Of a DNA stretch of 64,000 nucleotides, positions 3,982-30,499 are shown one piece after another (the first letter of the stretch is position 1; the number at the start of each line of letters is the position of its first letter). The notes under the pieces were generated by a model, which was not told the DNA's origin, did not search any database, and saw only the letters and a list, made by a program, of their open reading frames with translations. The stretch is from Corynebacterium accolens. GTDB taxonomy: Bacteria > Actinomycetota > Actinomycetes > Mycobacteriales > Mycobacteriaceae. The DNA is taken from NCBI RefSeq assembly GCF_023520795.1, contig NZ_CP046605.1:2091438-2155437 (forward strand). Reading direction: 5' to 3'. Both the position numbers and the translations under genes were made by a program.

Positions 3982-4182
3982 TGCCACTCCTTATAATCCC
4001 GTGAATATGCCGATAACTAAGGCCGCCATTTTATCACGCGCGGCATGCCTACCACCGGATACCCCCGATTACCCCCACGGACTACCCGCTAGCTTAGCGA
4101 GAAACTGTGTACTTTATATCGAAAGGGACTAGGCTAAAGATTTGATAAGCCCTGAGATCGCAATTGATGGAGGATGCTCAAC

Positions 4183-4773: not shown

Positions 4774-4786
4774 TAGCCCACCGCAC

Positions 4787-4824
4787 GCGCGCCCTACTCT
4801 TTCCGCGGAGTACGGGCGCGTTCG
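4787..4824 (+). terminator. Hairpin downstream of the lipoprotein gene
   Basis: A GC-rich inverted repeat (CGCGCCCTACTC pairing with GAGTACGGGCGCG, one bulge) is followed by TTCGTCGTTTT. This fits a Rho-independent terminator ending the lipoprotein transcript just before radA. Confidence 0.6.
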
Positions 4825-4857
4825 TCGTTTTGGCCGCCACGTTCTAGGCTCTACACC

Positions 4858-6222: not shown

Positions 6223-6324
6223 TTCAACCGTAACCGGTGATTGGTTCTTGCCAAGCTGTTGCCGAGGGGAGGGCGCTCCGGCGGCGCGGACTCCCGCGCG
6301 GGATGCTTCCGCCCGAGCTGGTTC

Positions 6325-6353
6325 CGCGCGGCCGACTGCAAGGAGGCCGCGCG
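6325..6353. terminator. GC-rich hairpin between convergent radA and the next gene
   Basis: CGCGCGGCC at 6325-6333 pairs with GGCCGCGCG at 6345-6353 across an 11-base loop, immediately before the minus-strand stop codon at 6355. It could end transcripts from either side; there is no strong T-run. Confidence 0.5.
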
Positions 6354-6354
6354 C

Positions 6355-7071: not shown

Positions 7072-7081
7072 GCACCCAATT

Positions 7082-7741: not shown

Positions 7742-7776
7742 GAAGTATATTTTAATGCCCTAGACTGTCCTGCGAG

Positions 7777-13666: not shown

Positions 13667-15084
13667 TCCGCGGCGGGCACGCGCTTGAGCAGCGGCGCGA
13701 GCACGAGCACGAAAAGCGAGAGCACGCCGGCGAAAAGGAAAGCCCAGTGCGCACCTTGGGCGGTGGCGGCGGCCTCGCTCATGCCCTCGGCTTGACCGGA
13801 CTTGGTACCGCTGGTCAAAAAGGCCACGAGGAAGGCGGTACCCGCCGCGCCGGCCAGCTGCTGCAGCGTATTCAAGATGGCGGAGCCGTGCGAATAGAGG
13901 TCATCGGGAAGCGAGGACAACGAGACCGTCATCAGCGGGGTCATCATGAGCGCAATACCCACGGCGAACAGGATATGCATGCCGATGACCATCCACACCT
14001 CGCTGTTTTCTGTCAGCAGGGTCATCAACCAGATGCCGGTAGAAAACATGATGGCGCCGGGAATCAACAGGGGCCGGGGGCCAAGGGCGTCATAAATCCG
14101 CCCCACAATCGGGGAAATACCGCCCTGCAGGAGGCCGCCGGGCATCACCACGAGGCCGGTGACCAGCGAGGATACCGCCAGCGAGGTCTGCAGATAAATG
14201 GGCAAGATATTCACCGTACCCAGCAGCAGGGCGAACATGAGCAGCATGGCGATGACCGCGAGGGTGAAATTACGGACCTTAAACGGGCGCAGGTCCAAAA
14301 GCGCGCGGTTTACCTTAGCCAGCCGGAGTTGGCGCACGGTAAAGGTAATGAGGGTGAGGACGCCGAGGAGGAGCACGAGGGCATCGGCAAGCGAGCCGCC
14401 CTCCACCATCTTTTCGATGGACGATAAGCCATAAATGAGCCCGCCGAAGGCCAGGGCGGATAAGAATACCGACGGAATATCGAGCGGGGTATCCCTGCGC
14501 TCACCCACGTTGACCAGGCGGAAGTAGCCGGCGATGCTGATGGCGGCGATGAGCGGGACCATGGTCCAGAAGATGACGTGCCAAGTCGCCATACTCAAGA
14601 TGAACCCGCCGACGGTGGGGCCCAAGGCCGGCGCCACGGAGATGACCACGGTGATAATACCCATGACGGTGCCGCGGCGCTGCGGTGGAACGAGCGTCAT
14701 GGCCACGGTCATAAGCGTAGGAATCATCAGCGCGGTGCCGGCGGCTTGCAGCACGCGGCCGACCAGCAGCAGCCCAAAGGCCGGGGCGAGGGCCGCCAGA
14801 ACCGTGCCCGTCAGGAAGACGCCGGTGGAGGCGCCAAAAATCTGCCGGGTGGTGAATTTATCCATCAGGAACCCGGTGGTGGGAATGACCACACCCATGG
14901 TGAGCAAGAAGCCGGTCAGCAGCCACTGCGCGGAGGTCGCCGGGATGGAGAAATCCGCCATGATGGTGGGCAGCGCCACCGAAAGCGCGGTTTCATTCAG
15001 GATCATCACCATCGCGGAGAGCACCAAGATGGTGAGGTTCGCTATGACCTCTGCGGAGATTTTCGGGGCGGGATTCTGAGACAC
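13663..15084 (-). CDS. MFS multidrug exporter, DHA2 (14-helix) family
   Basis: A proton-driven drug/cation exporter of the EmrB/QacA type. The 473-residue model from GTG 15084 has 14 hydrophobic segments. The family motif C region reads LVGRVLQAAGTALMIPTLMT, and motif A appears in the loop after helix 2 (GFLMDKFTTRQIFG). The open frame extends to 15195 but the extra residues are Arg/Asn-rich and lie in the guaB1 promoter region; no Shine-Dalgarno supports any start, so the start is uncertain. Substrate unknown. It is divergently arranged with guaB1. Confidence 0.85.
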   Translation of the reverse strand: MSQNPAPKISAEVIANLTILVLSAMVMILNETALSVALPTIMADFSIPATSAQWLLTGFLLTMGVVIPTTGFLMDKFTTRQIFGASTGVFLTGTVLAALAPAFGLLLVGRVLQAAGTALMIPTLMTVAMTLVPPQRRGTVMGIITVVISVAPALGPTVGGFILSMATWHVIFWTMVPLIAAISIAGYFRLVNVGERRDTPLDIPSVFLSALAFGGLIYGLSSIEKMVEGGSLADALVLLLGVLTLITFTVRQLRLAKVNRALLDLRPFKVRNFTLAVIAMLLMFALLLGTVNILPIYLQTSLAVSSLVTGLVVMPGGLLQGGISPIVGRIYDALGPRPLLIPGAIMFSTGIWLMTLLTENSEVWMVIGMHILFAVGIALMMTPLMTVSLSSLPDDLYSHGSAILNTLQQLAGAAGTAFLVAFLTSGTKSGQAEGMSEAAATAQGAHWAFLFAGVLSLFVLVLAPLLKRVPAAD

Positions 15085-15133
15085 CAAATCAGGATACTGA
15101 GTTGGCTTAACCTGCAAAACTTGGGGCGTATGA

Positions 15134-16618
<1,485 letters not shown>

Positions 16619-16636
16619 GGTGATTCAGGCGCGTGC

Positions 16637-16642
16637 TACTTT
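16637..16642 (+). promoter_or_regulatory. -10 element for leaderless crtB
   Basis: TACTTT lies 7 bases before ATG 16650 in the 31-base gap after guaB1, and no Shine-Dalgarno is present, so a leaderless crtB transcript is plausible. Confidence 0.3.
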
Positions 16643-16649
16643 TGCAAGT

Positions 16650-17504
16650 ATGTTGACTCGCTATGACCAGGCGGCCTCGCGCGCGGCCGCGCAGGTTATG
16701 GGGCAGTATTCCACCAGTTTTTCCCTGGCCACGCGCCTTTTGCGCGGGCGGGTGCGCGAAGACATCCGCCACCTTTATGCCGTGGTGCGCATCGCGGACG
16801 AGCTTGTCGATGGCACCGCTGACCAGGCCAGCATCGATGCCGCCGCCACGCTCGATGCCTACGAGGCCGCTATCTTGGCGGCGCCGGAGAAAAGGCTGCA
16901 CACCGATCCCGTCGTGCACTCCTATGCCATTACCGCTAGGCGCTGCGGCTTCCAGCGCGAGCACCTCGTGGCCTTTTTCGATTCCATGCGCGCCGACCTT
17001 AACCAGCGGGAGTATTCCGCCGCGGAACTCGCCGAGTATATCTACGGCTCCGCCGAGGTCATCGGCCTATTGTGCGTGCAAGTCTTCCTAGCGGAAGAGA
17101 CCGTCTCTGCCGCCGACCGCGCCGCGATGGACCGCGGTGCGCGCCACTTGGGCTCCGCGTTTCAAAAGATTAACTTCCTGCGGGACCTGGGCGAGGACTC
17201 CTCGGTCCTCGGCCGGGCCTATTTCCCGCAGGCTGCTGGTGGCGTGCTTTCCGAGGCCGCCAAATCCGCCCTCATCGCCGAAATCCGCCGCGAGCTCGCC
17301 GCCGCCGAAGAAGCCATTAACCTCTTGCCGCTTTCCGCCCGCGTTGGCGTGCGCGCGGCCGCCGATATCTTTGCCGAGCTCACCAACCGGCTCGCTGCTA
17401 CCCCCGCCGCGGAGTTAAAAACCACCCGCATATCCGTGCCGAATCGCACCAAGGCGTGGCTGGCCGCCCGCGCCGTACGATGCGCGGGGCGCGCGGGGCG
17501 GTAG
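16650..17504 (+). CDS. crtB: Phytoene/squalene synthase family protein
   Basis: Condenses two prenyl diphosphates head to head, in carotenoid synthesis two GGPP to phytoene. The 284-residue protein has both Asp-rich, Mg-binding motifs: DELVD at 50-54 and DLGED at 179-183. The N-terminal YSTSFSLATRLL (20-31) is typical. A longer frame open from 16251 lies inside guaB1 in another frame and is rejected. It is followed 64 bases later by crtI. No geranylgeranyl-diphosphate synthase, cyclase or elongase gene lies in this window. Confidence 0.9.
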   Translation: MLTRYDQAASRAAAQVMGQYSTSFSLATRLLRGRVREDIRHLYAVVRIADELVDGTADQASIDAAATLDAYEAAILAAPEKRLHTDPVVHSYAITARRCGFQREHLVAFFDSMRADLNQREYSAAELAEYIYGSAEVIGLLCVQVFLAEETVSAADRAAMDRGARHLGSAFQKINFLRDLGEDSSVLGRAYFPQAAGGVLSEAAKSALIAEIRRELAAAEEAINLLPLSARVGVRAAADIFAELTNRLAATPAAELKTTRISVPNRTKAWLAARAVRCAGRAGR

Positions 17505-17568
17505 TGCACCGCGCGGAGATGAGCGAGCAGGTAAAGGACCCCGAAGAAGACTGCAGACTAAGGAGAAT

Positions 17569-19170
17569 ATGATGCGCGCCGTTGTCATCGGGGCCGGCAT
17601 CGCCGGCCTGGCTACCGCTGCCCTACTGGGCAAAGAGGGCTACGAGGTCACCGTCGTAGATTCCCTAGACGAGGTCGGCGGGCGCGCGGGCAGCTATACG
17701 GAGGCCGGGTTCCGCTGGGATACCGGACCGTCCTGGTACCTCATGCCGGATGCCTTCGACCACTTCTTTTCCCTCTGCGGTACCTCGACAGAAAAGGAAC
17801 TGGATCTGGTGGGACTCTCGCCGGATTACCGCGTCTATACCGGCAGCCCCACCGCATCCACTCCTGGCAGCGCCTCGCGACCTACCCCCGTGGATATTCA
17901 CTCCGGAACCGATAACGTGGCCCAACTCTTCGAGTCGATAGAACCAGGCGCCGGCAAGCAGGTGCGCACCTATTTGGCAGATGCCAGCGACGCCTACCAG
18001 GTAGCGCTCGATCACTTTTTGTACACCACTTTTTCGGCGCCGTTGAACCTGGTGCATAGTGATATTCGGCATCGGCTAGCGCGAATCGCGGCGCTTTTAA
18101 CCAGCAGCCTGCAGCGCTATGTCAATGAGAAATTTTCGGATACGCGCCTGCGCCAGATTCTGAGCTACCCAGCGGTTTTTCTCTCCTCTGAACCTGCCGC
18201 AACCCCCGCGCTATATTCACTGCTCAGCCATACCGATTTGGTGGAAGGCGTGCGCTACCCGCGCGGTGGATTCGCTGCCGTAGTCGAGGCCATCTACCGC
18301 CAAGCCCAAAATTTTGGCACCACGTTCCGCTTGGGCGAAGAGGTCACCGCCATAACCACCGCCGGCGGTTCCTCCGCCCGCGCCACCGACGTCCGCGCCA
18401 CCGGTGTCCGCACAACAAACGGGCACATCGATGCCGATATTGTGGTCTCGGCTGCGGACCTGCACCATACCGAAACCCACCTCTTACCGCCGAAGCTGCG
18501 CACCTATCCGCAGCGCTACTGGGCCCGCCGCAATCCAGGGCTCGGCACCGTGGTGGTGCTCGCCGGTGTGCAGGGAAAACTCCCGCAGCTAGCTCACCAC
18601 ACCTTTTTGTTCAGCCAGGACTGGGACCCGGATTTCCGGGCCGTGTTTTCTGGACCAGAACCTATGCGCCCGCTCGGGGCCTCGCGGTCTATCTATATAT
18701 CCAAAACCTCAGCCACCGACGCCGATGTGGCACCCGAGGACCACGAAAACCTCTTCTTCCTCATTCCCGTGCCGGCTGCAGAAGACCTTGGCCACGGCGA
18801 TGCCTACCATCCCGAGGCGTCCCCACGCGTTAAGGCGATCGCTCAAGCAGCCATCGACCAGCTATCGGCCACCGCCGGGATTCCAGACCTGCACGAGCGA
18901 ATTACCATCACCCGCACCCTTGGCCCCGCCGATTTTGCCGAGCGCTATCACTCCTGGTCAGGCGGGGCTTTGGGGCCAGCGCATACGCTTTTTCAATCCG
19001 CATTCTTCCGCGGGCGCAATGCCTCGCGCAAGGTGACCGGCCTTTACTACGCTGGTGCGACCACCGTGCCAGGAGTCGGCGTGCCGATGTGCCTGATTTC
19101 TGCAGAAAACATCATCAAACGCCTGCGCGATGACCGCTCCGCGGGCCCGCTTCCTACAGATGGTGCCTGA
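17569..19170 (+). CDS. crtI: Phytoene desaturase (CrtI family)
   Basis: A FAD-dependent desaturase/isomerase acting on the crtB product. The N-terminal dinucleotide fold is VVIGAGIAGLATAALLGKEG, and the C-terminal signature includes GLYYAGATTVPGVGVPMCLI. The 533-residue length is slightly above the usual 500; a variable insert near residues 265-285 is Ala/Thr/Arg-rich. AAGGAG lies 5 bases before ATG-ATG, so either ATG may serve. It probably forms an operon with crtB. The colour of the end product cannot be predicted because later genes are absent here. Confidence 0.92.
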   Translation: MMRAVVIGAGIAGLATAALLGKEGYEVTVVDSLDEVGGRAGSYTEAGFRWDTGPSWYLMPDAFDHFFSLCGTSTEKELDLVGLSPDYRVYTGSPTASTPGSASRPTPVDIHSGTDNVAQLFESIEPGAGKQVRTYLADASDAYQVALDHFLYTTFSAPLNLVHSDIRHRLARIAALLTSSLQRYVNEKFSDTRLRQILSYPAVFLSSEPAATPALYSLLSHTDLVEGVRYPRGGFAAVVEAIYRQAQNFGTTFRLGEEVTAITTAGGSSARATDVRATGVRTTNGHIDADIVVSAADLHHTETHLLPPKLRTYPQRYWARRNPGLGTVVVLAGVQGKLPQLAHHTFLFSQDWDPDFRAVFSGPEPMRPLGASRSIYISKTSATDADVAPEDHENLFFLIPVPAAEDLGHGDAYHPEASPRVKAIAQAAIDQLSATAGIPDLHERITITRTLGPADFAERYHSWSGGALGPAHTLFQSAFFRGRNASRKVTGLYYAGATTVPGVGVPMCLISAENIIKRLRDDRSAGPLPTDGA

Positions 19171-19320
19171 GCCGCTCGCCGGATCGTTCTCTGCTTGCCG
19201 CTCACCTCTCGCAGCGCGGCCTCCGATGCGCAACGTCTCCCGTTCGGCCTCGATTGTGCAGCTTTCGATGCGCAACCTCTTTTGTGCAACCTCGGATGCG
19301 CATCCTCCTATGCAATAGGT

Positions 19321-19385
19321 CCTCGGTGATAACTGAGCAAACTCGGCCCTGAAATGTAGCATTTTTCGCTCAGATATCACCGAGG
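19321..19385. repeat. 18-bp inverted repeat with a nested inner hairpin
   Basis: CCTCGGTGATAACTGAGC (19321-19338) and GCTCAGATATCACCGAGG (19368-19385) pair at 17 of 18 positions. The 29-base loop contains GAAATG-TAG-CATTTTTC, which can fold again. Outside the right arm AGGTTGCAC mirrors the TGTGCAACCT motif left of the left arm, so the structure may be larger. Confidence 0.75.
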
Positions 19386-19460
19386 AGGTTGCACTTTTGT
19401 GAAGTCGATAGAAGTACGTAGAAATACGCAAAATAGGCAGGAGTAGGTAGAGGTAGACAA

Positions 19461-19494
19461 AGAAAAAGGCTGCAGCCAAAGGGAGGCTGCAGCC
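19461..19494 (-). terminator. Rho-independent terminator of lysS
   Basis: Two copies of the palindrome GGCTGCAGCC (19468-19477 and 19485-19494) form a 10-bp stem. Read on the minus strand it is followed by TTTTTCTTTG, 60 bases after the lysS stop. Confidence 0.85.
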
Positions 19495-19553
19495 GGTGTC
19501 GGGGCGCTAACGTGTGCCCGCGTGGGCGGGCACCGAGTGGGCGCCGGGTATGG

Positions 19554-21131
19554 CTACTTCTGTTCTGGCTTTACCAGCGGGAAGAGCACGGTCTCGCGGA
19601 TGCCCAAGCCGGTCAGGGCCATGAGCAGGCGGTCCATGCCCATGCCGGTACCGGCCGTCGGCGGCATGCCCTGTTCCATCGCGGCGAGGAAGTCCTCGTC
19701 CAAGACCATGGCTTCCTCATCGCCGCCGGCGGCAAGGCGGGCCTGATCCTCGAAGCGCGCGCGCTGGACGACGGGATCGACAAGCTCCGAGTAGCCGGTG
19801 GCCAGCTCGAAGCCGCGCACGTAGAGGTCCCACTTTTCGGTCACGCCGGGCTCGGAACGGTGCTGGCGGGTCAGCGGGGAGGTCTCCACCGGGAAGTTCT
19901 TCACAAAGATCGGGCCTTCCAGTTGGTCCTCGCACAGGACCTCCCAGATTTCCTCCACCAGCTTGCCGTGGCCCCAGCCTTCCCCCTTCGGCACGTCGAG
20001 GCCGATGACCTTGGCAATTCCCTTCAGGGTCTCCACGTCGGTATCGATGGTGACCTCCGGCTGGCCGGGGAACTTGCGCTGCAAGGCCTCATTCAGGGAA
20101 GGATACATCTCGATTTCGGGCCATTGATCGCCGCCGAAGTCGAAATCGGTGCCGTCGGCAAGCGTGACGGTGGTGGAACCAAAGACCTCGCGAGCCACGG
20201 ACTGGATGGACTCGCGGGTCATGCGGGCGCAATCATTGTAATCGCCCCAGGCGGCGTAGGTCTCCAGCATGGCGAACTCCGGCGAGTGGGAGCGGTCCAC
20301 GCCCTCATTGCGGAAGTTGCGGTTGATTTCAAAGACGCGGTCGATGCCACCAACGACGGCGCGCTTCAAGTACAGCTCCGGGGCAATGCGCAGGTAGAGG
20401 TCAATATCGAGAGCATTGGAGTGGGTGATAAACGGGCGAGCGGCCGCACCACCGTGCAGGGCCTGCAGCATCGGGGTTTCGATCTCTACAAAGTCCTGGC
20501 TTTCCAGGTAATTGCGCAGCGCGCGCATGACCTTCACGCGCACCATGGCGTTCTTGCGGGCCTCTTCGCGGATAATGAGGTCGTTATAGCGCTGGCGCAC
20601 GCGGGTATCTTCAGCCATATCCGCGAAGGACACCGGCAGCGGGCGCAGGGACTTGGCCGCCATGGTCCATTCCTCAGCCATGATGGACAGCTCGCCGCGG
20701 CGGGAAGCAACCACGTGGCCGCTAACGGAGATGAAGTCGCCCAAGTCCACGTCGGACTTCCAGGCATCGAGGCGCTCCTTGCCCACCTTGGCCTGCGACA
20801 GCATGGCCTGCATCTGGGTGCCATCGCCGTCCTGCAAGGTGGCAAAGCACAGCTTGCCGGTATTGCGCATGAAGATAAGGCGGCCGGCAATAGCGTGGGT
20901 GACCTCGGTTTCCTCACCAGCGGCCAGGTAGGTCACGCCCTCTTCATTGCCCGGCTCTTCGCCCTCGGCCACTACGCGGAAATCATGGCGCAGATCCTTT
21001 AGCGCGATGGTGCGCTCGACGGATACCGGGTAGGCCTCCACGCCGGATTCGAGCAGGCGGTCGCGCTTTTCGCGGCGGATGCGCAGCTGCTCAGGGACAT
21101 CGTTTACTTCAGTATTCTTCTGCTCGCTCAC
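19554..21131 (-). CDS. lysS: Lysyl-tRNA synthetase, class II
   Basis: A 525-residue class IIb synthetase. The N-terminal OB-fold anticodon domain contains [20 protein letters not shown]; motif 2 appears as [20 protein letters not shown] and motif 3 near the C-terminus as [17 protein letters not shown]. The start is GTG 21131. TACCCT lies 8 bases upstream on the minus strand, so the mRNA may be leaderless. The 42-bp sequence repeated beyond the deaminase-ASCH islet begins 19 bases upstream of this start. The mprF-fused LysX form is absent. Confidence 0.95.
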
Positions 21132-21149
21132 GTTAGCCTAGGGTAGTCG

Positions 21150-21191
21150 ATCCCAGCCGCTACCCGCGATTTGGCCCAGCTATGTCTACCA
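21150..21191. repeat. Left copy of a 42-bp imperfect direct repeat
   Basis: Aligns without gaps to 22391-22432 at 36 of 42 positions; the central core GCGATTTGGCC is identical. It lies in the lysS upstream region. The two copies bracket the deaminase-ASCH gene. Confidence 0.75.
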
Positions 21192-21366
21192 AAGCAACGA
21201 AAGGGCGCACAGACCGCAAGCACACACCATGACGTTGTATCGACTGAGAACATTAACGATTCCTACAAAATATCGTTTAACCCTCGTTTAAGCCTGCGCT
21301 TCCCCACCTATAAAAAGAATCCGGCCCTGAGATACTTACTCAACGCCGGTATTCTGTAGCTGCGGG

Positions 21367-21422
21367 TGAAGTGTCCCAGGTTTTGTTCCGTTTGAGTAGA
21401 TGGGAAGATCTGGGACACTTCA
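21367..21422. repeat. Perfect 13-bp inverted repeat pair (56 bp outer span)
   Basis: TGAAGTGTCCCAG (21367-21379) and CTGGGACACTTCA (21410-21422) are exact inverse complements around 30 bases. It could be an insertion-sequence end remnant or MITE, or a large hairpin upstream of the deaminase gene. Confidence 0.7.
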
Positions 21423-21456
21423 GATCGAAGCTGCTAGTAGTTACTACCATTAGAGC

Positions 21457-22167
21457 GTGATTACTAACGAACTTCGGGAATTAACAGCCAAAGCAACCGC
21501 CCATGCGCAGCGTTTCCAAGACGGAGGTGACCACACCGTAGCCGCAGCCCTCCTGACCAAATCAGGAAAACACGTTCTCGGTTTAAACGCACACCATTTC
21601 CTTGGCGGCCCCTGCGGTGAAGTCTCTGCTTTAGCAAACCATGCCGCTAGTTATCCAGGGGATCCCATCCAAGCAGTAGTCGCCATATATGGACCTACCG
21701 GTCAAGTTATTTCACCTTGTGGTAAATGCCGCCAGGTACTCTTTGATGTCGATCCATCTATCCAGTGTATTGTGCGCGGAAGCAACGGCCTCGTTGCGCC
21801 CACTGTGGAAGAACTTCTTCCATTCGCGTTTAACTTGCAAGACTTGGAAAAAGAGCAGCGCATCTACATGTGGGAAGGCTACGAGGATTCCATTCGGAGC
21901 GGAGAAAAGCAACAAACAATCCGAGTAGATGATCCCTTCAATGAAGGAAAAGCCCAAATAGTCTTTGAGAAGGAAACCGGAGAAGTCGTCACGCTACCCG
22001 CACAGGTCACAGCCGTTGTATCCACCCAGCGCGGGCTGCTGTCGGAAAAGCAAGCTAAAAATGACGGGTTCAATTCTCTATCCGAGCTTCACGAAGCTCT
22101 AGATACTCACTACCCCGGATTAGCGGATACAGACGAAGTTGACGTTGTAGAATTCGAGCTCCAGTAG
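21457..22167 (+). CDS. Cytidine deaminase fused to a C-terminal ASCH (YqfB-like) domain
   Basis: Residues 1-125 are a cytidine-deaminase fold: Cys53-Gly54-Glu55 is the zinc ligand plus proton-shuttle Glu, and P87-C88-G-K-C91 gives the other zinc cysteines, with the same spacing as tetrameric bacterial cytidine deaminases. Residues 135-236 form an ASCH domain with S148-G-E-K151-Q-Q-T154-I-R156, then LSEKQAKND and YPG and a closing VDVVEFEL. From memory this aligns with E. coli YqfB, an N4-acetylcytidine amidohydrolase with catalytic Lys21, Thr24 and Glu74 (here K151, T154, D203). I infer an ac4C to cytidine to uridine salvage enzyme. Start GTG 21457 is probably leaderless (TACCAT 6 bases before). 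Base composition is visibly lower in GC than its neighbours. Confidence 0.8.
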   Translation: MITNELRELTAKATAHAQRFQDGGDHTVAAALLTKSGKHVLGLNAHHFLGGPCGEVSALANHAASYPGDPIQAVVAIYGPTGQVISPCGKCRQVLFDVDPSIQCIVRGSNGLVAPTVEELLPFAFNLQDLEKEQRIYMWEGYEDSIRSGEKQQTIRVDDPFNEGKAQIVFEKETGEVVTLPAQVTAVVSTQRGLLSEKQAKNDGFNSLSELHEALDTHYPGLADTDEVDVVEFELQ

Positions 22168-22196
22168 ACTAGCCAGACCGAAGATCGAATCATTCG

Positions 22197-22391
22197 CTAC
22201 CTCGCCAAAAAGCCGCTGTTCGGAAATTTTTGAGATACTTCGTCAAGATTTACAAGTGCCGCCACCAAAGGGCTCCCAACTGGAGGAAGCGAGATAACCA
22301 CTCCTCCATAAGTCCAGTCGATTGAGCCTTCGCCGTTTACCACGGTACTTCGGCACGACTGGCTCCATGCCGCGTCAGCAGGGTCTTTTAA
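22197..22391 (-). pseudogene. Possible 3' remnant of an unknown gene
   Basis: About 63 codons are open on the minus strand and end at TAG 22197-22199, with no start codon in a sensible context. The translation contains protein-like sequence (KDPADAAWSQSC, GSIDWTYGGVVISLPPVG, SPLVAALVNLDEVSQKFP). The open frame is cut off upstream by a stop inside the right direct repeat, as if the 5' part was lost at that junction. I recognise no family; it could also be chance. Confidence 0.35.
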
Positions 22392-22432
22392 TCCCCGCCG
22401 CTACCTGCGATTTGGCCTAGCCATGTCCGCCA
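22391..22432. repeat. Right copy of the 42-bp imperfect direct repeat
   Basis: Matches 21150-21191 at 36 of 42 positions; the differences are scattered single substitutions, so the duplication is not recent. Confidence 0.75.
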
Positions 22433-22526
22433 GGCCGCGCCGATCGCGCATAAGCCCCTGCGATCCACCCCACCGCGTCCACATAGTGGAACACCACCCC
22501 CTTAATTCACCCGCACCGCAAGATTT

Positions 22527-22542
22527 TGTGTGAACCGTGACA
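22527..22542 (+). promoter_or_regulatory. Weak GlxR (CRP)-like site upstream of cstA
   Basis: TGTG-N8-GACA differs from the CRP-type TGTGA-N6-TCACA core at several positions, so this is only suggestive. A second TGTGATACACA stretch follows at 22556. Carbon-starvation genes are often under such control. Confidence 0.25.
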
Positions 22543-22600
22543 TACTGTTCAGACCTGTGATACACAACACCCCACCTTCGACGCGCAAGGAGACACAGCC

Positions 22601-24313
22601 ATGAACTCTCTCATCCTTGTCATCATCGGCGTGGCGATGATGCTGGCCGGCTACCTGCTCTATTCCAAATTCCTGGGCAAGAGCATCTCCCGACTATCAG
22701 AGAACTACACCACCCCGGCGCACCGCCTCAAAGACGGCGTGGATTATGTTCCCACCAATAAATACGTGCTGTGGGGCCACCACTTCACCTCAGTGGCGGG
22801 TGCGGCACCGATTATCGGCCCGGCAGTAGCCGTCATTTGGGGATGGCTCCCGGCATTCCTGTGGGTCACGTTCGGCACCGTCTTCATCGCCGGCATGCAT
22901 GACCTGGGTGCGCTGTGGGCCTCGCAAAGGCACAAGGGCCAGTCGATTGGTACGTTGTCGGGGCGCTACATCGGCAAGCGCGGGCGCAACCTCTTCCTCA
23001 TTGTGATCTTCTTGCTGCTGCTCATGGTCAATGCCGCGTTCGCCGTGGTGATTTCGAACCTGCTTATCTCCACGCCTTCGGCGGTCATTCCTACGTGGGG
23101 TGCCATCGCCGTCGCGCTGCTGATTGGCCAGGCCATCTACCGCCTGAACTGGAACCTGCCGCTGGTCTCCCTCGTGGGCGTGGTGGCACTGTATTCGCTA
23201 ATGGTCCTGGGTGACCGCTTCCCGGTCGTGCTGCCAGAGACGGTCTTGGGTATCCCGGCCAACGGCGTGTGGATCATCTTGCTATTTATCTACGCCTTCA
23301 TCGCTTCGCTGCTGCCGGTGTGGGTGCTGCTCCAGCCGCGCGATTACATCAATGGCCTGCAGCTTTTCGTCGGTCTTATCATCTTGTACGGCTCCTTCCT
23401 TATCACCCGTCCGGAGCTCGCCGCCCCTGCCGTGCGCGAGAACGTTCCTGACGGGACCCCAGGCATTTTCCCGCTGCTTTTTGTCACCATCGCCTGCGGT
23501 GCCATCTCTGGTTTCCACGGCATCGTGGCCTCGGGTACCTCGTCGAAGCAGATTGATGAGGAAACCGACGTTCGCTTCGTGGGTTACTTCGGCGCGGTGG
23601 GCGAGGGTCTGCTGGCGCTCGGCACCATCATCGCCACGACCGCTGGCTTTAAGACCCTGGCGAATTGGGAGGAAATCTACGCCGAGTGGAACGCCGGCGG
23701 TGTCAACGCCTTCGTGCAGGGCGGCGGCGCGCTGATGAACGAGGGCCTGGGCATTCCCACCTCGCTGTCTGCCACCATCCTGGCGACCATGGCCGTACTC
23801 TTCGCCGCCACCACCATGGACTCCGGCGTGCGCCTGCAGCGCATCGTGGTCCAAGAAATCGGCCAGATCATGGGCATCCGCATCACGGCGCTGGTTTCCA
23901 CCATCATCGCGGTAGGCCTGGCCTTCGGCCTGACCTTCTCGGCCGGTGCGGACGGCTCCGGCGGCATGACCATCTGGCCGCTCTTCGGCACCACCAACCA
24001 GCTCATGGCCAGCCTGTCCTTGGCCATCGTCGTGGTCATCCTCACCCACCTGCGCCGGCCCACCCTGCCGGTTATCATCCCGCTCATCTTCGTCACCATC
24101 ATGTCGCTGTGGGCAGCGCTGCTACAGCTGAAATCCCTGTTTGCAGATCAGAACTGGCTGCTCTTCGGCATGGACGTCATCATCGTCATCGCCTCCATCT
24201 GGGTCATCGTGGAGTCGATCGGCGCTATCTCCAACGCGCGCAAGCAACCACCGCTGGAGTGGACCGATGATGATACCGACGCTCCCCTTCCCCAGCATGC
24301 TCGACAAGCTTAA
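22601..24313 (+). CDS. cstA: Carbon starvation protein A, pyruvate/peptide transporter family
   Basis: A polytopic inner-membrane transporter; CstA/BtsT family members import pyruvate, and some import peptides. The 570-residue protein has about 15 hydrophobic helices and CstA signatures: HHFTSVAGAAPIIGPAVAVI near residue 60, DYINGLQLF mid-protein and FHGIVASGTSSKQIDEETD around residues 305-325. It is shorter than E. coli CstA (about 700). AAGGAGACACAGCC precedes ATG 22601 at good spacing. Its end overlaps the next gene by 47 bases, coupling it to the small CC-ending protein. Confidence 0.93.
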   Translation: MNSLILVIIGVAMMLAGYLLYSKFLGKSISRLSENYTTPAHRLKDGVDYVPTNKYVLWGHHFTSVAGAAPIIGPAVAVIWGWLPAFLWVTFGTVFIAGMHDLGALWASQRHKGQSIGTLSGRYIGKRGRNLFLIVIFLLLLMVNAAFAVVISNLLISTPSAVIPTWGAIAVALLIGQAIYRLNWNLPLVSLVGVVALYSLMVLGDRFPVVLPETVLGIPANGVWIILLFIYAFIASLLPVWVLLQPRDYINGLQLFVGLIILYGSFLITRPELAAPAVRENVPDGTPGIFPLLFVTIACGAISGFHGIVASGTSSKQIDEETDVRFVGYFGAVGEGLLALGTIIATTAGFKTLANWEEIYAEWNAGGVNAFVQGGGALMNEGLGIPTSLSATILATMAVLFAATTMDSGVRLQRIVVQEIGQIMGIRITALVSTIIAVGLAFGLTFSAGADGSGGMTIWPLFGTTNQLMASLSLAIVVVILTHLRRPTLPVIIPLIFVTIMSLWAALLQLKSLFADQNWLLFGMDVIIVIASIWVIVESIGAISNARKQPPLEWTDDDTDAPLPQHARQA

Positions 24314-24554
24314 GGCCTTCGGCGCGGGGCTCAACGAGTTCTACCAAGCCCCGTACCGCGCCGTGTTTGCCAAGGCCAAGCAGCAAGAAGATGACCTATT
24401 TATGATGCTGGTGGCCTCGGAGGCGCTCGGCATCCCCAACCCCGCCAGCTACTACACGCTGGAGCTATTGCCGCTGGTCTACGAAGATTTCCACGCCTGG
24501 CACACGCGCATGGGCATGGATAAATCACCCCTGGAGAATATTCAATGCTGCTAG
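24267..24554 (+). CDS. Cory-CC-star type small protein
   Basis: A 95-residue protein ending in Cys-Cys-stop, the hallmark that I recall for the corynebacterial cory-CC-star family. It contains aromatic and acidic helices (AGLNEFYQAPYRAVF, EDDLFMMLVASEALG, YEDFHAWHTRMGM) and no signal peptide or membrane helix. TGGAG 7 bases upstream supports ATG 24267 (or 24270); ATG 24297 has no ribosome site. It overlaps cstA by 47 bases and the ArsA gene by 10 bases, with the TGC-TGC-TAG ending shared with the next start. No biochemical role is known to me; it may be a metal- or membrane-related partner of the ATPase. Confidence 0.75.
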   Translation: MMIPTLPFPSMLDKLKAFGAGLNEFYQAPYRAVFAKAKQQEDDLFMMLVASEALGIPNPASYYTLELLPLVYEDFHAWHTRMGMDKSPLENIQCC

Positions 24555-25486
24555 AAACCGCGCCCGTCATGTTCTTTGGCGGCAAGGGCGGCGTGGGCAA
24601 GACCACCCTCGCCACCGCCACAGCCCTGTCGCTTTCCCAGGACCACAACGTGTTGTTGGTCTCCACGGATCCGGCGCACAATCTGGGGCATATCTTTGAT
24701 GCCACGCTTTCCGATGCCCCCTCTCACCTCACCCCCTCCCTCTCCGCCATCGAGCTCGATCCGGCACGGGCCACCGAGGAACACCTCGCGACCGTGGGTG
24801 CCTCGATGCGCCGCTTCATGCCGGAGCACCTGCACGGCGAGGTAAAAAAGCACCTAGATTTGGCCCGGCAATCCCCCGGCACGCAGGAGGCAGCGCTCTT
24901 AGAGCGCATGGCCACCTTGGTCGCAAATGCTAACGAGTATGACTACCTCATCTTCGATACTGCCCCGTCCGGTCACACCTCCCGGCTGATGGCCCTGCCG
25001 GAAATCATGGCGGCCTATACCGATGGGCTGCTTGCTCGGCGCGAGAAGTCCGATAAATTCGGCTCGCTGGTGCGCGGAATGTCCGCGGAATCCGGCGCCG
25101 ATAATGACCCGGTGGACCGGCGCAATCAGGAAATCCGCGCCACGCTCTTCCAGCGCCGCGAACGCTTCGAGCAGCTGCGCGCTGCGCTGACTTCTAAGCG
25201 CACCGTATTCCACATCGTGCTCACCGCCGAGCGCCTGCCCGTCTTAGAGTCCTCCGAGTTCCACGCGGATCTCACCGGCAATGGCGTGCGGGTGGGTTCC
25301 ATGCTGGTCAACCGCCGCACCCCGGCGGACCAAGGCGAGTTCTTGGCCTCCCGGCGCGCCGTCGAGGACGAGGCCCTAGCGCTCTTGCACGACAAGCTTC
25401 CTGATACCCCAGTCCACGAGATCCCCTGGCTCCCAGAAGAGGTGGGAAGCCCCGAAGCCGTGGCGCGGCTGGCGGAGCATCTATAG
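24545..25486 (+). CDS. ArsA/Get3-family ATPase, cysteine-free
   Basis: A SIMIBI-class ATPase with the deviant Walker A GGKGGVGKTT (residues 12-21), switch I STDPAHNLG and the A-loop/switch II DTAPSGHTSRLM. The family includes the arsenite pump ATPase ArsA and the tail-anchored-protein chaperone Get3. At 313 residues it is a single-unit form. It contains no cysteine, so it cannot bind arsenite or form the Get3 zinc CxxC; the only cysteines in the operon are the last two of the preceding protein. No arsB or arsR is nearby. A role in protein targeting or in CstA assembly is inference. Confidence 0.85.
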   Translation: MLLETAPVMFFGGKGGVGKTTLATATALSLSQDHNVLLVSTDPAHNLGHIFDATLSDAPSHLTPSLSAIELDPARATEEHLATVGASMRRFMPEHLHGEVKKHLDLARQSPGTQEAALLERMATLVANANEYDYLIFDTAPSGHTSRLMALPEIMAAYTDGLLARREKSDKFGSLVRGMSAESGADNDPVDRRNQEIRATLFQRRERFEQLRAALTSKRTVFHIVLTAERLPVLESSEFHADLTGNGVRVGSMLVNRRTPADQGEFLASRRAVEDEALALLHDKLPDTPVHEIPWLPEEVGSPEAVARLAEHL

Positions 25487-25563
25487 CGGTTTGTAGCGAT
25501 CTCTAACGACCATCCAGTACCCAGCGGCCCCGAGTGAGATCGCAATCTGCTAAAACAGAGAAT

Positions 25564-26883
25564 ATGACTTTGCTCACCAATGACTTCCTGTCCCAATTGC
25601 GCGAGGAGGCCGCAGCGGACTCCCAGCTGCGCGTCGCGCGCAATGCCATTACCAGCGTAGGGGTGGCCAAGGCGGCGCTCGACCGCGACCGCATTACCGC
25701 CCTCTACCCCACCACCGAGGTAAAACTCGATAGCCTCGGGGTCACCGACCAGATGCGCTCCGGGCGCTGCTGGATGTTTGCCGCGCTCAACGTGTTCCGC
25801 CACCGCGCGGCCAAGGAGCTCAATATCGATGACTTTGAGTTTTCCTTTACCTACCTGCAGTACTTCGACAAACTAGAGCGCGCCAACTTCGCGCTCAACC
25901 AGCTGCTGGATCTCACCGAAGACGGCACCGACTGGGATGACCGCGAGGTGGCTACTTCCCTCGAGCTCACAGGCGACGACGGCGGTTGGTGGTCATTTTT
26001 CACCAACCTCGTGGACAAGTACGGCGCAGTCCCGGCCGAGGTCATGCCGGAGGTGCACTCGTCTGGCCACACCGACCAGATGAATCGCGATATCGCCACC
26101 ATCATCCGCCGCGCCGCGCACCGTGCGGTGGAAGGTGAGGGGGATCGCGGGGGCATTATCAAGCAAGCCCGCACCGATATCCAACGCGTGCTCGCCATTC
26201 ACCTGGGCACCCCGCCCGAGGAGTTTACGTGGAGCTACCGCACCAAGGACGATCAATTCTTCCGCGTGCACTCCACCCCGCGCGAGTTTGCGGATAAGTA
26301 CCTGCCAAAGTTGGACGAGTACGTCGTGCTTGCCGATGACCCCCGTACCACCAACGATAAGCACCGCCTCTACACCAGCGCCGGCGTGAACAACGTCGCT
26401 GGTGGACAGGCTGCCGGCTACCTCAACGTCGATGTGGACGAGCTGCGCTCCGCCGCGCGCGCCAGCATCGAGGCCGGCGAACCTGTGTGGTTTAGCTGCG
26501 ATGTCGACCGCCAGTTCTCCTTCCAGAACGCCGTGTGGGACGAGGGCCTCGTTGATACCGATGGCCTCTACGGCATCGATTCCACCATGAGCAAGGAGGA
26601 ACGGTTTACCTCCGGCGAATCTGCGCCCACCCACGCGATGGTGCTGACCGGCATCGATGGTGCACCCCGTGCATGGCGCGTGGAGAACTCCTGGGGCACC
26701 AAGCCGCCGCGCAAGGACGACGCCGACGAAGTACCAGGCAAGGGCTTTGCCACGATGTCGGACGAATGGTTCGGCGAAAACGTCTTCCACATCGCCGTGC
26801 GCAAGGAATTCCTCACCACTGAGCAGCAGCAAGCGCTAGAGACCGAGCCCATTGAGCTTCCCTTCTGGGACCGGATGAACTAA
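25564..26883 (+). CDS. pepC: C1-family aminopeptidase (bleomycin hydrolase/PepC), copy 1
   Basis: A cytoplasmic papain-fold cysteine aminopeptidase that should form a hexameric barrel. The catalytic Cys69 lies in RSGRCWMFAALN, His in THAMVLTG and Asn in WRVENSWG. ATG 25564 gives 439 residues, the normal length; ten upstream codons in frame are rejected. The usual C-terminal self-trimming arm is present (FWDRMN ending). It is 13 bases upstream of a second copy. Confidence 0.92.
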   Translation: MTLLTNDFLSQLREEAAADSQLRVARNAITSVGVAKAALDRDRITALYPTTEVKLDSLGVTDQMRSGRCWMFAALNVFRHRAAKELNIDDFEFSFTYLQYFDKLERANFALNQLLDLTEDGTDWDDREVATSLELTGDDGGWWSFFTNLVDKYGAVPAEVMPEVHSSGHTDQMNRDIATIIRRAAHRAVEGEGDRGGIIKQARTDIQRVLAIHLGTPPEEFTWSYRTKDDQFFRVHSTPREFADKYLPKLDEYVVLADDPRTTNDKHRLYTSAGVNNVAGGQAAGYLNVDVDELRSAARASIEAGEPVWFSCDVDRQFSFQNAVWDEGLVDTDGLYGIDSTMSKEERFTSGESAPTHAMVLTGIDGAPRAWRVENSWGTKPPRKDDADEVPGKGFATMSDEWFGENVFHIAVRKEFLTTEQQQALETEPIELPFWDRMN

Positions 26884-26896
26884 GGAGCATCGAGAA

Positions 26897-28198
26897 ATGA
26901 ATGAGATCAATCCACAGGAAGTTCACACCACCAACGCCACGCTTACCAGCGAGCCGGCCATCAGGGCGGCGCGGAATGCGGTGGCGCAGGAGGGCATCGA
27001 TAAGCTGAGCGTCGACCGCGATCTCGTGCGCGAACTCACCACGGCGACCAGCCACAAGCTCGATAAGTGGGGCGCGGCCAACCAGAAGGCTTCTGGCCGC
27101 TGCTGGATTTTTGCGGGCCTGAATTCCCTGCGCGGTGGCATCATGGATCGCACCAACATCAAGGATTTCGAGCTTTCGCAGACCTACCTGTACTTCTACG
27201 ACAAGCTGGAAAAGGCCAATTGGTTCCTCACCGCGGTAGATGAGCTCAAGGACCGCGATATGACGGACCGCACCTTGACCAAGCTCATGGATGACCCCAT
27301 TGGCGATGGCGGCCAGTGGTCCATGTTCGTCTCGCTGGTGGAAAAGTACGGTGTGGTGCCCAAGTACGCCATGCCGGAGACCGCGTCCTCCGAGGCCAGC
27401 GCCATGCTCAACCGCAACCTGCAGACCGTCCTGCGCCGCGCCGCCCACCAGATTCGCGCGGGTAAGTCTGGGGCACAGGAGCACGCGCTTGCCGATGTCT
27501 ACCGCATCCTCACCGCCAACCTCGGCCTCCCGCCCACAGATTTCCAGTGGCAGTACCGCGATAAGGACGATAACTTCCACCGCGAGGGCACTTTTACCCC
27601 GCAGGACTTCGCCCGCGAATACCTCCCGAAGGACCTGGGCGAGTACGTCTGCGTGGTCAATGACCCGCGCAATAATTACGGCGAGCTCTACACCGTGGAC
27701 TACCTAGGCAACGTCGCCGGTGAAAAGGTCACCTACCTCAACGCCCCGGTCGAGGTATTGCGCGATGCCACCCGCTCTGCCATCGAGGATGGCCGGCCCG
27801 TCTGGTTCGGGTGCGATACCAGCCAGCAATCCGATGCCGATAGCGGCGTCTGGGCCAAGCGCCTGCACGATTATGAGGGGCTGTATGGGGTGGAAATGGG
27901 CATTGAGAAGCCAGATCGCCTCCGCCTCCACGAGTCCCTGATGACGCACGCGATGGTCTTTACCGGCGCAGATATTGCCGAGTCCGGCGAGGTCACCCGC
28001 TGGCGCGTGGAAAATTCCTGGGGCACCGAGAAGGGCAATAAGGGCTTTTGGACCATGGCCGATGACTGGTTTGACGAGTACGTCTTCGAAATCGCCGTCC
28101 ACCCGTCCCGCCTGCCTGAGCAGTACCAAGAGGCGCTGAAGTCCACCGAGATCACCACCCTGCCGGCGTGGGATCCGATGGGCGCGCTAGCGAACTAA
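26897..28198 (+). CDS. pepC: C1-family aminopeptidase (bleomycin hydrolase/PepC), copy 2
   Basis: A 433-residue tandem paralogue of the preceding gene with the same catalytic layout: Cys69 in ASGRCWIFAGLN, His in THAMVFTG, Asn in WRVENSWG. AAGGAGC lies 9 bases before ATG 26897. The two proteins differ at many positions, so the duplication is old and they may prefer different peptides. Both would release N-terminal amino acids from peptides taken up or made in the cell. Confidence 0.92.
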   Translation: MNEINPQEVHTTNATLTSEPAIRAARNAVAQEGIDKLSVDRDLVRELTTATSHKLDKWGAANQKASGRCWIFAGLNSLRGGIMDRTNIKDFELSQTYLYFYDKLEKANWFLTAVDELKDRDMTDRTLTKLMDDPIGDGGQWSMFVSLVEKYGVVPKYAMPETASSEASAMLNRNLQTVLRRAAHQIRAGKSGAQEHALADVYRILTANLGLPPTDFQWQYRDKDDNFHREGTFTPQDFAREYLPKDLGEYVCVVNDPRNNYGELYTVDYLGNVAGEKVTYLNAPVEVLRDATRSAIEDGRPVWFGCDTSQQSDADSGVWAKRLHDYEGLYGVEMGIEKPDRLRLHESLMTHAMVFTGADIAESGEVTRWRVENSWGTEKGNKGFWTMADDWFDEYVFEIAVHPSRLPEQYQEALKSTEITTLPAWDPMGALAN

Positions 28199-28202
28199 CG
28201 CG

Positions 28203-28226
28203 GTGGCGCGGGGAGACCCGCGCCAC
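28203..28226. terminator. Strong hairpin between convergent genes
   Basis: GTGGCGCGGG (28203-28212) and CCCGCGCCAC (28217-28226) form a perfect 10-bp stem with a GAGA loop between the pepC pair and the minus-strand operon. No long T-run follows on either strand. Confidence 0.55.
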
Positions 28227-28275
28227 GAAAAATCGCGCCGAAGTGTGTTCGTTTGCGTGGCGTGACGCGGTAGCC

Positions 28276-28887
28276 TCACGCTACGTGGCGGACGTACAGC
28301 ATGCAGGTAAGGTCGCGGTCCTTATCGATGGAGATTTCCTTCTCCCCCACCCGCTCAAAACCGCGGGAATCGTAGAACTGATAGGTGCAGCCATCGTCGG
28401 TGTAGAGGTAAATATCCTTGCCGGGGTGGCGCTCCTCAAAGGCCTCGAGGAGCGCGGTGCCCACGCCCTTCACACCCGAGTTTGGGTCGGCGACGAGGAA
28501 GCCGATTTCACCGTCCACGGTGTTCTCGGCCAGGTAGCTGACCAACATATCCTCGTTCGCGGCATCGTAGTCCTCGCGGTGGCCGCCAGGGCGCAGGCTA
28601 TTGAAGAGATCCACGGCCTTGACATAGGCCTTGCGCCACCACGGGTACGGCAGCGCTGGATCGCCTTTAATCGATGCCAGAATCACGCCGAGGAAACGCC
28701 CGTCGTCGCCGTAGGCGGCCAAGATGTCGGTGGCCTGGGCGCGCTCTAAATCCCAAAAGTAGCGGCCATAGGCACGCTCAAAACGCGGATTCTTCACAAA
28801 CCAGTGCAGGTGCATGCCTTCGATGGCAAACTCAATCGCCTTGGTTTCATCGCGCGGGTCAAGGTCGCGGATGTGAATTTCGGTCAT
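28276..28887 (-). CDS. GNAT-family N-acetyltransferase
   Basis: The 203-residue protein carries the acetyl-CoA-binding segment VADPNSGVKGVGTALLEAFEE (about residues 130-150), the R/Q-x-x-G-x-G/A type loop, and the closing beta strands around FYDSRGFERVGEKEI. A Trp/Tyr-rich N-terminal half contacts the acceptor. Substrate unknown. It is the last gene of the long dacB-to-GNAT block; its ATG overlaps the panC stop by one base (TAATG). Confidence 0.8.
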   Translation of the reverse strand: MTEIHIRDLDPRDETKAIEFAIEGMHLHWFVKNPRFERAYGRYFWDLERAQATDILAAYGDDGRFLGVILASIKGDPALPYPWWRKAYVKAVDLFNSLRPGGHREDYDAANEDMLVSYLAENTVDGEIGFLVADPNSGVKGVGTALLEAFEERHPGKDIYLYTDDGCTYQFYDSRGFERVGEKEISIDKDRDLTCMLYVRHVA

Positions 28888-29828
28888 TAGTCCTCCGGGG
28901 ATGGGTTTTGTTCGCGCTGCTTTTCGCGCTCGAGCTCGGCCTTAGCCTCGTGCTCTTCAATATTAGTGAACCCAATCCCTAACGGCAGGCCAACGTTGTC
29001 AATTAATCGAACTCCGCCAATGGTGGCAGCGACTAGCAAGCGGGCATCGCCCTCGGCAGGCGGCTCGCCCAGGTCGCGGCCGCGCACTTCTAGGTATTCC
29101 GGTTCAACACCGGCGGCTTCTAGGACACCTGCGGCAACCTCGCGGACCTTATCCGCGCCTGCCTCTGCGGCGTGTGCACCAGCGGTAAGCGCGGCGGAGA
29201 GGGCGGCTACATCCTCGCGCTTGTCCTCGGGCACGCGCGTATTGCGCAGGCTCATCACCACGCCATCGGGCATGCGCACGGCGGGAACGCCCTGCACGCG
29301 AACCCCAAGGTGCAAGTCCTGCACCGCGTGGTGAATGGCCAAGAGCAGCTCGTAGTCCTTCTCCCCGATGAGGACATCGGTGGGCGACAGCGCCATCATC
29401 AGCGTGAGGTAGAGGGTGAGCTCGCCGGATAAGTCTGGTTCTAAGCTTGTGGGCTCAGGTGTAGTCGCGGGAGCGTCTTGATCTGCTGGGAACCCTGGGA
29501 CGTCGCGTTCAACCGCGACGCTGCGAGCCGCGATATTAATCCGGCGGCCATGGGGCCAAAGTTTTTCGGGAGTGTAATCCCAGATGACGTCCACGCCCTC
29601 GGCGCGCAGGAGTTCTACATCTTCGGCGCGGGGTTCTTGGAGGGCCACGACGGTCACCGCGCCGCGGATGCGGCGGGCCGCGCGCACCAGGGCGATGTGC
29701 CCGGCATGCACGCCGGTGGTCAGCGGCACGAAGGCTACGGGACGACCGGTCTTGCGCAGGGCGCTTCCCACCATGCGGATGCGGTCGACCTCGCTGATGA
29801 TGGTGGCTTGTCCCATCTTCAAGCTCAT
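28887..29828 (-). CDS. panC: Pantothenate synthetase (pantoate-beta-alanine ligase) homologue
   Basis: Joins pantoate and beta-alanine with ATP to make pantothenate. HAGH in TTGVHAGHIALV corresponds to the HxGH nucleotide motif; LIGEKDYELL and PDGVVMSLRNTRV match the ligand-binding segments of PanC. The normal PTMGALH start of the first motif is altered to PLTTGVH. ATG 29828 follows GGAGGA by 6 bases and overlaps the preceding stop by 4 bases (313 residues). An insert near residues 110-130 is Pro/Thr-rich. It may be the only PanC or a divergent second copy. Confidence 0.82.
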   Translation of the reverse strand: MSLKMGQATIISEVDRIRMVGSALRKTGRPVAFVPLTTGVHAGHIALVRAARRIRGAVTVVALQEPRAEDVELLRAEGVDVIWDYTPEKLWPHGRRINIAARSVAVERDVPGFPADQDAPATTPEPTSLEPDLSGELTLYLTLMMALSPTDVLIGEKDYELLLAIHHAVQDLHLGVRVQGVPAVRMPDGVVMSLRNTRVPEDKREDVAALSAALTAGAHAAEAGADKVREVAAGVLEAAGVEPEYLEVRGRDLGEPPAEGDARLLVAATIGGVRLIDNVGLPLGIGFTNIEEHEAKAELEREKQREQNPSPED

Positions 29829-30499
29829 CGCGATTCCTCCTGCAGGGCCCACATTTCTAATTCGGTGCGATCTTCTACTTCACCCAATCGCCGAGCGGTT
29901 TCTAAATAGTGGCGGCGCATTCCGGGATCCGTGGCGCCGCGATAGGCCGCGATGATGTCCTCTGTATCGATGTCGAATTCAGACGGTGGGATCTCATCAA
30001 ACTCGGCAAAGAAATTGGCTTCTACGGCCGCTGCTAGGTGCAAGCGGCTGAGCATTTCTATGTAGTAGGAGCGGGCGGCAAAGGCGGGACGTTCGGCATC
30101 GGAAAGCGGCACTGCCTGCCCCCGGAATTCGGTCACTACGAAGTCAGCGATGTTTTCGCCCAGCTCATCCAGCGTGGATACGGCCCAGCGCCCGCCCGCC
30201 ATGGGTGCTATGGCCGCCACGATGCAACCGTGTGTCTCCAGCGGATCGAGGCCTTGCACGCCCCGCGATAGGCAGGTGTGGAAAGCGATGAGCCCCTTGT
30301 GCACGTGGTCCTGGACTAGCTCGACGGCAGCGTCCAGCCGTGCCTCACCCACGGCCAGAATCAGCGCCTGGAAGGAGCCAAGTTCGGCCGGATCATTGAG
30401 CATCTCCACGGTGTGGCCGGCACGCTCCATGGCATTGGCCAGGGAGATCCCGGCGAGGCTGCGTCCGAAAAGGGCAACACGCATGCGCGGTGGACGCAT
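29825..30499 (-). CDS. Rossmann-fold protein with DUF2520-like C-domain
   Basis: The 224-residue protein begins with a short dinucleotide-binding start (VALFGRSLAGISLANAMERAG), followed by an acidic sheet and a helical C-domain, as in Rossmann/DUF2520 proteins often found beside panC in actinobacteria. The family resembles ketopantoate reductase and pyrroline-5-carboxylate reductase, so a role in pantoate supply is possible but unproven. The stop overlaps the panC start. Confidence 0.65.
   Translation of the reverse strand: MRPPRMRVALFGRSLAGISLANAMERAGHTVEMLNDPAELGSFQALILAVGEARLDAAVELVQDHVHKGLIAFHTCLSRGVQGLDPLETHGCIVAAIAPMAGGRWAVSTLDELGENIADFVVTEFRGQAVPLSDAERPAFAARSYYIEMLSRLHLAAAVEANFFAEFDEIPPSEFDIDTEDIIAAYRGATDPGMRRHYLETARRLGEVEDRTELEMWALQEESR

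Follow-up and report, generated by a model that had tools for sequence, protein, structure and literature searches.

A 64,000-nucleotide stretch of the Corynebacterium accolens genome (contig NZ_CP046605.1, positions 2,091,438 to 2,155,437, referred to below as the window) carries a gene whose product joins a zinc-dependent deaminase domain to an ASCH domain. This fusion is a new combination of two known kinds of enzyme, and it is both conserved and mobile. The explanation that we favor, and to which we give about even chances, is that it is a mobile enzyme with two activities, one deacylating and one deaminating, directed at cytosine nucleosides from outside the cell and plausibly at antibiotics of the blasticidin S and amicetin types. 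The observations on which this explanation is built are the identity of the two domains, the conservation of their catalytic residues, the position of the deaminase half on the blasticidin S deaminase branch, the YqfB-like fold of the modeled ASCH half, purifying selection, and a patchy distribution in changing genomic contexts; from them we infer the activity of both active sites, the order of the two steps and the class of substrate.

Two domains in one conserved protein

An in-frame stop codon lies two codons upstream of the gene's GTG codon, which is therefore the earliest start possible. A preliminary description, made from the sequence itself, had proposed a deaminase-ASCH fusion, and hidden Markov model searches bear this out, since both families are matched above cut-off in one 236-residue protein: Pfam dCMP_cyt_deam_1 at residues 6-98 (28.5 bits, cut-off 25) and Pfam ASCH (PF04266) in the C-terminal half at residues 137-235 (43.4 bits, cut-off 21.2). 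The residues singled out in that description (C53, E55, C88, C91, K151, T154, R156 and D203) are all at the positions it gave. In an alignment of the window protein with 19 homologues, both Pfam domains are matched in all 20 members at E <=0.01, the member from locus L048 scoring 20.9 bits on the deaminase model, below the cut-off of 25. Among the residues that do not vary across these 20 fusions are C53, E55 and C88 in the zinc half and, in the ASCH half, K151, T154, R156 and Y219. The zinc ligand C91 is replaced by Asp in two Streptomyces homologues (L053 and L055).

Pairwise ratios of nonsynonymous to synonymous substitution (dN/dS) between the window gene and ten relatives range from 0.05 to 0.10 in the deaminase half and from 0.06 to 0.16 in the ASCH half; of four further comparisons, made between relatives, two gave 0.33-0.35 in the ASCH half. 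The low values in both halves point to purifying selection that keeps both, and this, together with the presence of the domain pair in every member of the alignment, argues that the join is not an accident of reading frame. An AlphaFold2 model of the whole protein, built with 22 sequences, has a predicted local distance difference test score (pLDDT) of 90.8 and a predicted template modeling score (pTM) of 0.58, the latter too low to settle how the two domains are arranged relative to one another. We found no description of a deaminase-ASCH fusion in the literature searched; a 2006 survey of ASCH domains lies outside that search, so an earlier mention is possible.

Affinities of the deaminase half

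The zinc deaminase site, C-x-E plus C-x-x-C, is present (C53, E55, C88 and C91). The preliminary description had called this a full cytidine deaminase zinc site; the zinc ligands are as it said, but the motif around them (N-A-H-H-F-L-G-G-P-C-G-E) is of the blasticidin S deaminase type. The first half had also been identified as a cytidine deaminase, and here three comparisons speak against it. The top phmmer matches in the PDB are the blasticidin S deaminases 2z3j, 1wn5, 2z3i and 3oj6, with an E-value of 2.6e-22 for 2z3j versus 1e-12 for the best cytidine deaminase, and when the AlphaFold2 model was submitted to Foldseek the first 16 rows were all blasticidin S deaminases. In a maximum-likelihood tree of 51 rows (from loci L065-L092 we left out L073, in which the motif used for trimming is absent), a branch with support of 100/100 parts the 20 fusions and 8 blasticidin-type rows from 23 cytidine-deaminase-type rows, and the Cdd protein of the same genome falls among the latter. 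The fusions have an HF-x-GGPC motif (with A for P in one, L048) where other rows of the tree have N-(V/I)-E, the Glu of which binds ribose. The NCBIfam cytidine deaminase models also remain below their cut-offs (TIGR01354, 50.2 versus 113.65 bits; PRK05578, 51.4 versus 74). Cytidine deaminase identity is thus rejected by sequence ranking in the PDB, by fold ranking and by the tree, and the half is, by its sequence and modeled fold, of the blasticidin S deaminase type. Blasticidin S deaminase is described as specifically active on blasticidin S (PMC539255).

The genome has TadA-, Cdd- and RibD-like proteins of its own, named by eye and, in the case of Cdd, also placed by the tree. Within the deaminase tree the fusions are not confined to one side of any branch (3 changes), so the fusion may have arisen or been lost repeatedly.

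Affinities of the ASCH half

The resemblance of the second half to Escherichia coli YqfB, also proposed in the preliminary description, is upheld by both profile and structure. YqfB is the best PDB match by profile (E 1.8e-8, the next ASCH chain being at 0.13), and an AlphaFold2 model of this half (pLDDT 94.7) has the YqfB fold, its top structural match by both Foldseek and VIA being YqfB entry 9kyf. The Lys/Thr/acid catalytic set that had been claimed is retained, and the residue table adds equivalents of YqfB Arg26 and Tyr89. Lys21, Thr24 and Arg26 of YqfB, each of which inactivates that enzyme when changed to Ala (PMC6972931), correspond to K151, T154 and R156 and are invariant not only in the 20 fusions but in 19/19 ASCH rows; the position of Glu74 is acidic in all 19 (17 Asp and 2 Glu) and is Asp203 in the window protein. 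The score against the NCBIfam equivalog model NF003443 is 19.1 bits for the whole protein and 21.4 for the domain alone, short of the cut-off of 93. As for the range of substrates that such a domain might handle, YqfB-type enzymes tolerate many different N4-acyl groups (PMC9599836), and bulky ones like benzoyl are among them (PMC10688628).

His70 and Asp27 of YqfB, which YqfB-like proteins conserve, are not kept, being Q199 and V157 in the window protein, and the 19 ASCH rows have Q, D, H or I at position 70. In YqfB the H70A change lowers activity about tenfold, and the D27A enzyme is still active (PMC6972931). The loss of these two residues would suit a PUA-like binding module, devoid of hydrolase activity, that brings the deaminase to RNA, to a nucleotide or to a modified base, and ASCH and PUA domains are indeed widely described as binders of nucleic acids or modified bases, often fused to RNA-modifying enzymes (PMC7641849). 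We nevertheless judge this alternative improbable.

The place of YqfB in the ASCH tree is not settled, because YqfB, L104 and L114 all form long branches. Two single-domain ASCH proteins (L020, 1429-1812; L057, 4962-5309) fall within the clade of fusion ASCH domains, a position that suggests, from sequence, loss of the deaminase half or repeated fusion.

N4-acetylcytidine salvage

YqfB is the closest characterized relative of the ASCH half, and its main substrate is taken to be N4-acetylcytidine (ac4C). The preliminary description had accordingly proposed that the fusion recycles ac4C from the cell's own RNA. We searched 26 carrier genomes, of which 21 have an intact fusion and 5 a partial or single-domain copy, for TmcA_N (PF08351) and HIGH_NTase1 (PF05636), the families of the ac4C writers TmcA and TmcAL. 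The set consists of 19 of the 20 matching genomes of the genus (without G096, which has a deaminase-like match only), G393 and six genomes that carry named loci; hosts of the other named loci and of the plasmids lie outside it. Neither family was found in any of the 26, and the controls matched in 3/14 and 4/14. With no known ac4C writer, the carriers should have little ac4C of their own to recycle, and the genome already has an ordinary Cdd. The recycling proposal thus fares badly: the absence of both families in 26/26 genomes makes recycling from the cell's own tRNA unlikely, an unknown writer being still conceivable. The chemistry from ac4C to uridine is possible in the fusion, but it is not the likeliest role.

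A form of the same proposal that moves the substrate outside the cell would have the enzyme turn exogenous ac4C, for instance from host-cell RNA on skin, into uridine as a source of pyrimidine. Many of the named carriers are skin species, which favors this form, and the absence of known writers concerns only ac4C that the cell would make itself. However, the deaminase half does not belong to the cytidine type and a Cdd is already encoded elsewhere in the genome, so that an ASCH half alone would suffice, and the mobile context described below fits cargo better than core salvage. We therefore think such a scavenging role unlikely.

Distribution and mobility

The gene behaves, to judge from sequence comparisons, like mobile cargo of skin and soil actinobacteria. 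In a sample of the genus 20 of 201 genomes match, 14 with an intact fusion (15 copies) and 6 with partial, split or single-domain forms only. A genome scan gave 28 loci, of which 26 align over at least 233 residues. They lie in Corynebacterium, Dermabacter, Helcobacillus, Propioniferax, Zimmermannella, Piscicoccus, Brachybacterium, a Propionibacteriales metagenome-assembled genome (MAG) and Saccharopolyspora. Further homologues, in Rhodococcus, Streptomyces and Curtobacterium, come from 6 plasmid records that cover at least 80% of the protein (the five that were read are annotated "ASCH domain-containing protein"). In a sample of the phylum, with at most 7 candidates scored per genome, the full-length fusion is rare, occurring in at least 2 of 396 genomes, and 196 have any match, nearly all of them deaminase only among the matches listed.

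The surroundings of the gene change from locus to locus. When window positions 14001-30000 were compared with the other loci by blastn (matches >80 bp), the 27 genome loci other than L024 aligned no more than about 25 bp past the gene, except for one unrelated stretch in L048. The G+C content of the gene is 0.51 against 0.62 for the window. Among the loci compared we found no conserved neighbor genes, the widest clusters besides the fusion being overlapping or general frames; real shared context is limited to five loci of the C. minutissimum/aurimucosum group and to a block directly upstream of the fusion in four loci (L026 in C. kefirresidentii, L028 in C. tuberculostearicum, L029, and L041 in C. 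striatum). This block encodes, at 98-100% protein identity, MerR, a DsbD-like transporter and a pyridine-nucleotide-disulphide oxidoreductase that appears by eye to be mercuric reductase. In L028, the locus in which the Pfam domains were checked, this arrangement of a mercury-resistance-like block and the fusion gene is at 1690-8285. L030 has only diverged relatives of two of the block's genes, on the opposite side of the fusion, and the fusion copy in L041 is cut short. An IS240-type transposase gene lies downstream in L028 and is common to no other locus, and the Rhodococcus fusion gene lies between IS3 and IS5 transposases. Close upstream of the window gene two insertion-sequence ends face each other (21367-21422), probably, by their sequence, the scar of a mobile element. 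This end, TGAAGTGTCCCAG, has 10 exact copies in the genome, these two included, and the reversed control has 0; in L024, the closest relative, the same end bounds an insert of about 5.7 kb that carries an integrase-core gene along with genes that look by eye like iron-transport genes.

A patchy and mobile distribution of this kind, along with a recombinase and a type I restriction gene near one homologue (L042), could also be expected of an enzyme of phage defense or of the nucleotide pool, one that acts during infection by depleting or editing cytosine nucleotides. We regard this as very improbable: no PADLOC-DB family matched up to E 1 (absence from that library does not exclude a defense role), none of 50,697 phage records has a match covering 80% of the protein, a scan of IMG/VR gave no relative (60 stretches fit a pattern, none of them related), and no neighboring gene is widely common among the loci.

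In the Brachybacterium MAG (L048, 6001-7248) a single frame of 416 residues spans deaminase, ASCH and GNAT domains. Taken alone, the GNAT part has matches in 31 of 47 genomes of the family, and it is joined in only one (G617, which is 100% identical and so the same sequence), and no second copy of it was found in the neighbor frames of other loci. We regard GNAT as a third domain here as the product of an insertion that joined the frames by chance, and draw no support from it.

A promoter that accompanies the gene

In 28 of 34 sequences a TANNNT -10 box precedes the start codon at a spacer of 6 (26 cases) or 7 (2 cases), the six others being L016, L043, L046, L052, L054 and L055; many of the 34 are closely related, so these are not 28 independent cases. 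By comparison, 0.37% of random positions in the window and 3 of 116 window frames have such a box at spacer 6, and 10 of the 116 have one at spacers 5-8. In the Corynebacterium homologues, L024 excepted, only about 10-20 bp upstream can be aligned to the window, and loci of other families, with flanks that cannot be aligned, have the box as well. By this sequence evidence the promoter travels with the gene, and its mRNA is predicted to be leaderless. Inspection by eye of the 170 bp upstream of the start showed no conserved leader or attenuator. In C. glutamicum, leaderless transcripts make up 33% of mRNAs, and the TAnnnT box lies 3-11 nt before the transcript start (PMC3890552). Leaderless mRNAs being common in this group, predicted leaderless expression is by itself no sign of function.

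Proposed function

In the explanation that we favor, both halves would act on N4 of a cytosine nucleoside. The YqfB-like ASCH half would hydrolyze an N4-acyl group by means of Lys151, Thr154, Arg156 and Asp203, turning N4-acyl-cytosine into cytosine and the acid, and the zinc half would then deaminate cytosine irreversibly to uracil. The substrates would most likely be foreign cytosine nucleosides rather than breakdown products of the cell's own RNA, above all ribosome-targeting antibiotics in which N4 is free (blasticidin S type) or acylated (amicetin type), and the gene would be mobile detoxification cargo with its own promoter. On the ribosome, blasticidin S and amicetin use the same cytosine pocket, and in amicetin the cytosine amine bears a para-aminobenzoyl arm (PMC12856912); the amino sugar of amicetin and/or this arm are needed for activity on Mycobacterium smegmatis (PMC4278220). 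A bifunctional N4 enzyme would handle both types of drug. None of the five annotated plasmid loci that were read lies in an obvious nucleoside-antibiotic cluster.

More specifically, and only tentatively, since on balance we doubt it, the protein may be a two-headed mobile resistance enzyme that covers both chemical classes of cytosine-based ribosome inhibitor. The ASCH domain would strip the N4-acyl arm from amicetin-type drugs and the blasticidin-type half would destroy the cytosine so exposed, while drugs of the blasticidin S type would be hit directly; because the cytosine would be destroyed once the acyl group was removed, inactivation would not be reversible. If this is true, it would be the first ASCH enzyme known in antibiotic resistance, according to the literature searched.

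Two enzymes for the same atom of a cytosine nucleoside would here be joined and travel as one gene. If both halves work, the recently found ASCH amidohydrolases would be linked to drug detoxification and not to RNA turnover, it would become clear why in some skin corynebacteria the gene lies next to insertion sequences and a resistance operon, and the protein would be an already assembled cascade that could interest prodrug and nucleoside chemists. The test for ac4C writers is, in addition, a simple way to sort ASCH hydrolases that serve RNA turnover from others.

Other features of the window

The features of the fusion gene and its upstream region are collected in the table. Elsewhere in the window, an ArsA-type anion-transporting ATPase gene (PF02374) lies at 24545-25486, and two tandem genes for C1-like peptidases (25534-26883 and 26897-28198, both PF03051) look like a duplication.

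Table. Positions of the fusion gene, its domains and upstream elements, numbered from the first nucleotide of the window.
Feature	Position	Strand	Remarks
Fusion gene	21457..22167	+	236 aa, GTG start, TAG stop; bounds of the open reading frame exact
N-terminal zinc deaminase domain, blasticidin S deaminase type (by sequence and model)	21472..21831	+	About residues 6-125; C53, E55, C88, C91; Pfam, PDB phmmer, Foldseek, tree
C-terminal YqfB-like ASCH domain	21859..22164	+	About residues 135-236; K151, T154, R156, D203, Y219; Pfam, PDB profile, AlphaFold2, Foldseek, VIA
TACCAT, TANNNT -10 box	21445..21450	+	Ends 6 nt before the start codon
Facing insertion-sequence ends, TGAAGTGTCCCAG	21367-21379, 21410-21422	+, -	34 bp upstream of the gene

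Comparison with known systems

With the homotetrameric cytidine deaminases (Cdd; PDB 1jtk, 3ijf) the window protein shares superfamily and zinc chemistry, but it falls on a different branch of the tree, has no N-(V/I)-E motif and scores under the TIGR01354 and PRK05578 cut-offs. It is like blasticidin S deaminase (PDB 1wn5, 2z3g-j, 3oj6) in sequence, predicted fold, HF-x-GGPC-x-E motif, Cys/Cys/Cys/Glu zinc site and tree branch. It differs in having K90 in place of R90, the same change as in the deposited mutant 2z3j, and in carrying the ASCH fusion, whereas the matched structures have a single domain and about 130 residues (158 in 3oj6). Unlike YqfB, an ac4C amidohydrolase (PDB 9kyf-9kyh, 1te7; PMC6972931), the ASCH domain of the window protein does not stand alone, has Asp for Glu74, is without His70 and Asp27, and falls far under the NCBIfam equivalog cut-off. 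It also resembles, by description, the metagenomic amidohydrolase D8_RL, which its paper presents as an ASCH-domain N4-acylcytidine hydrolase; D8_RL, however, is a single domain of 128 aa (PMC10688628).
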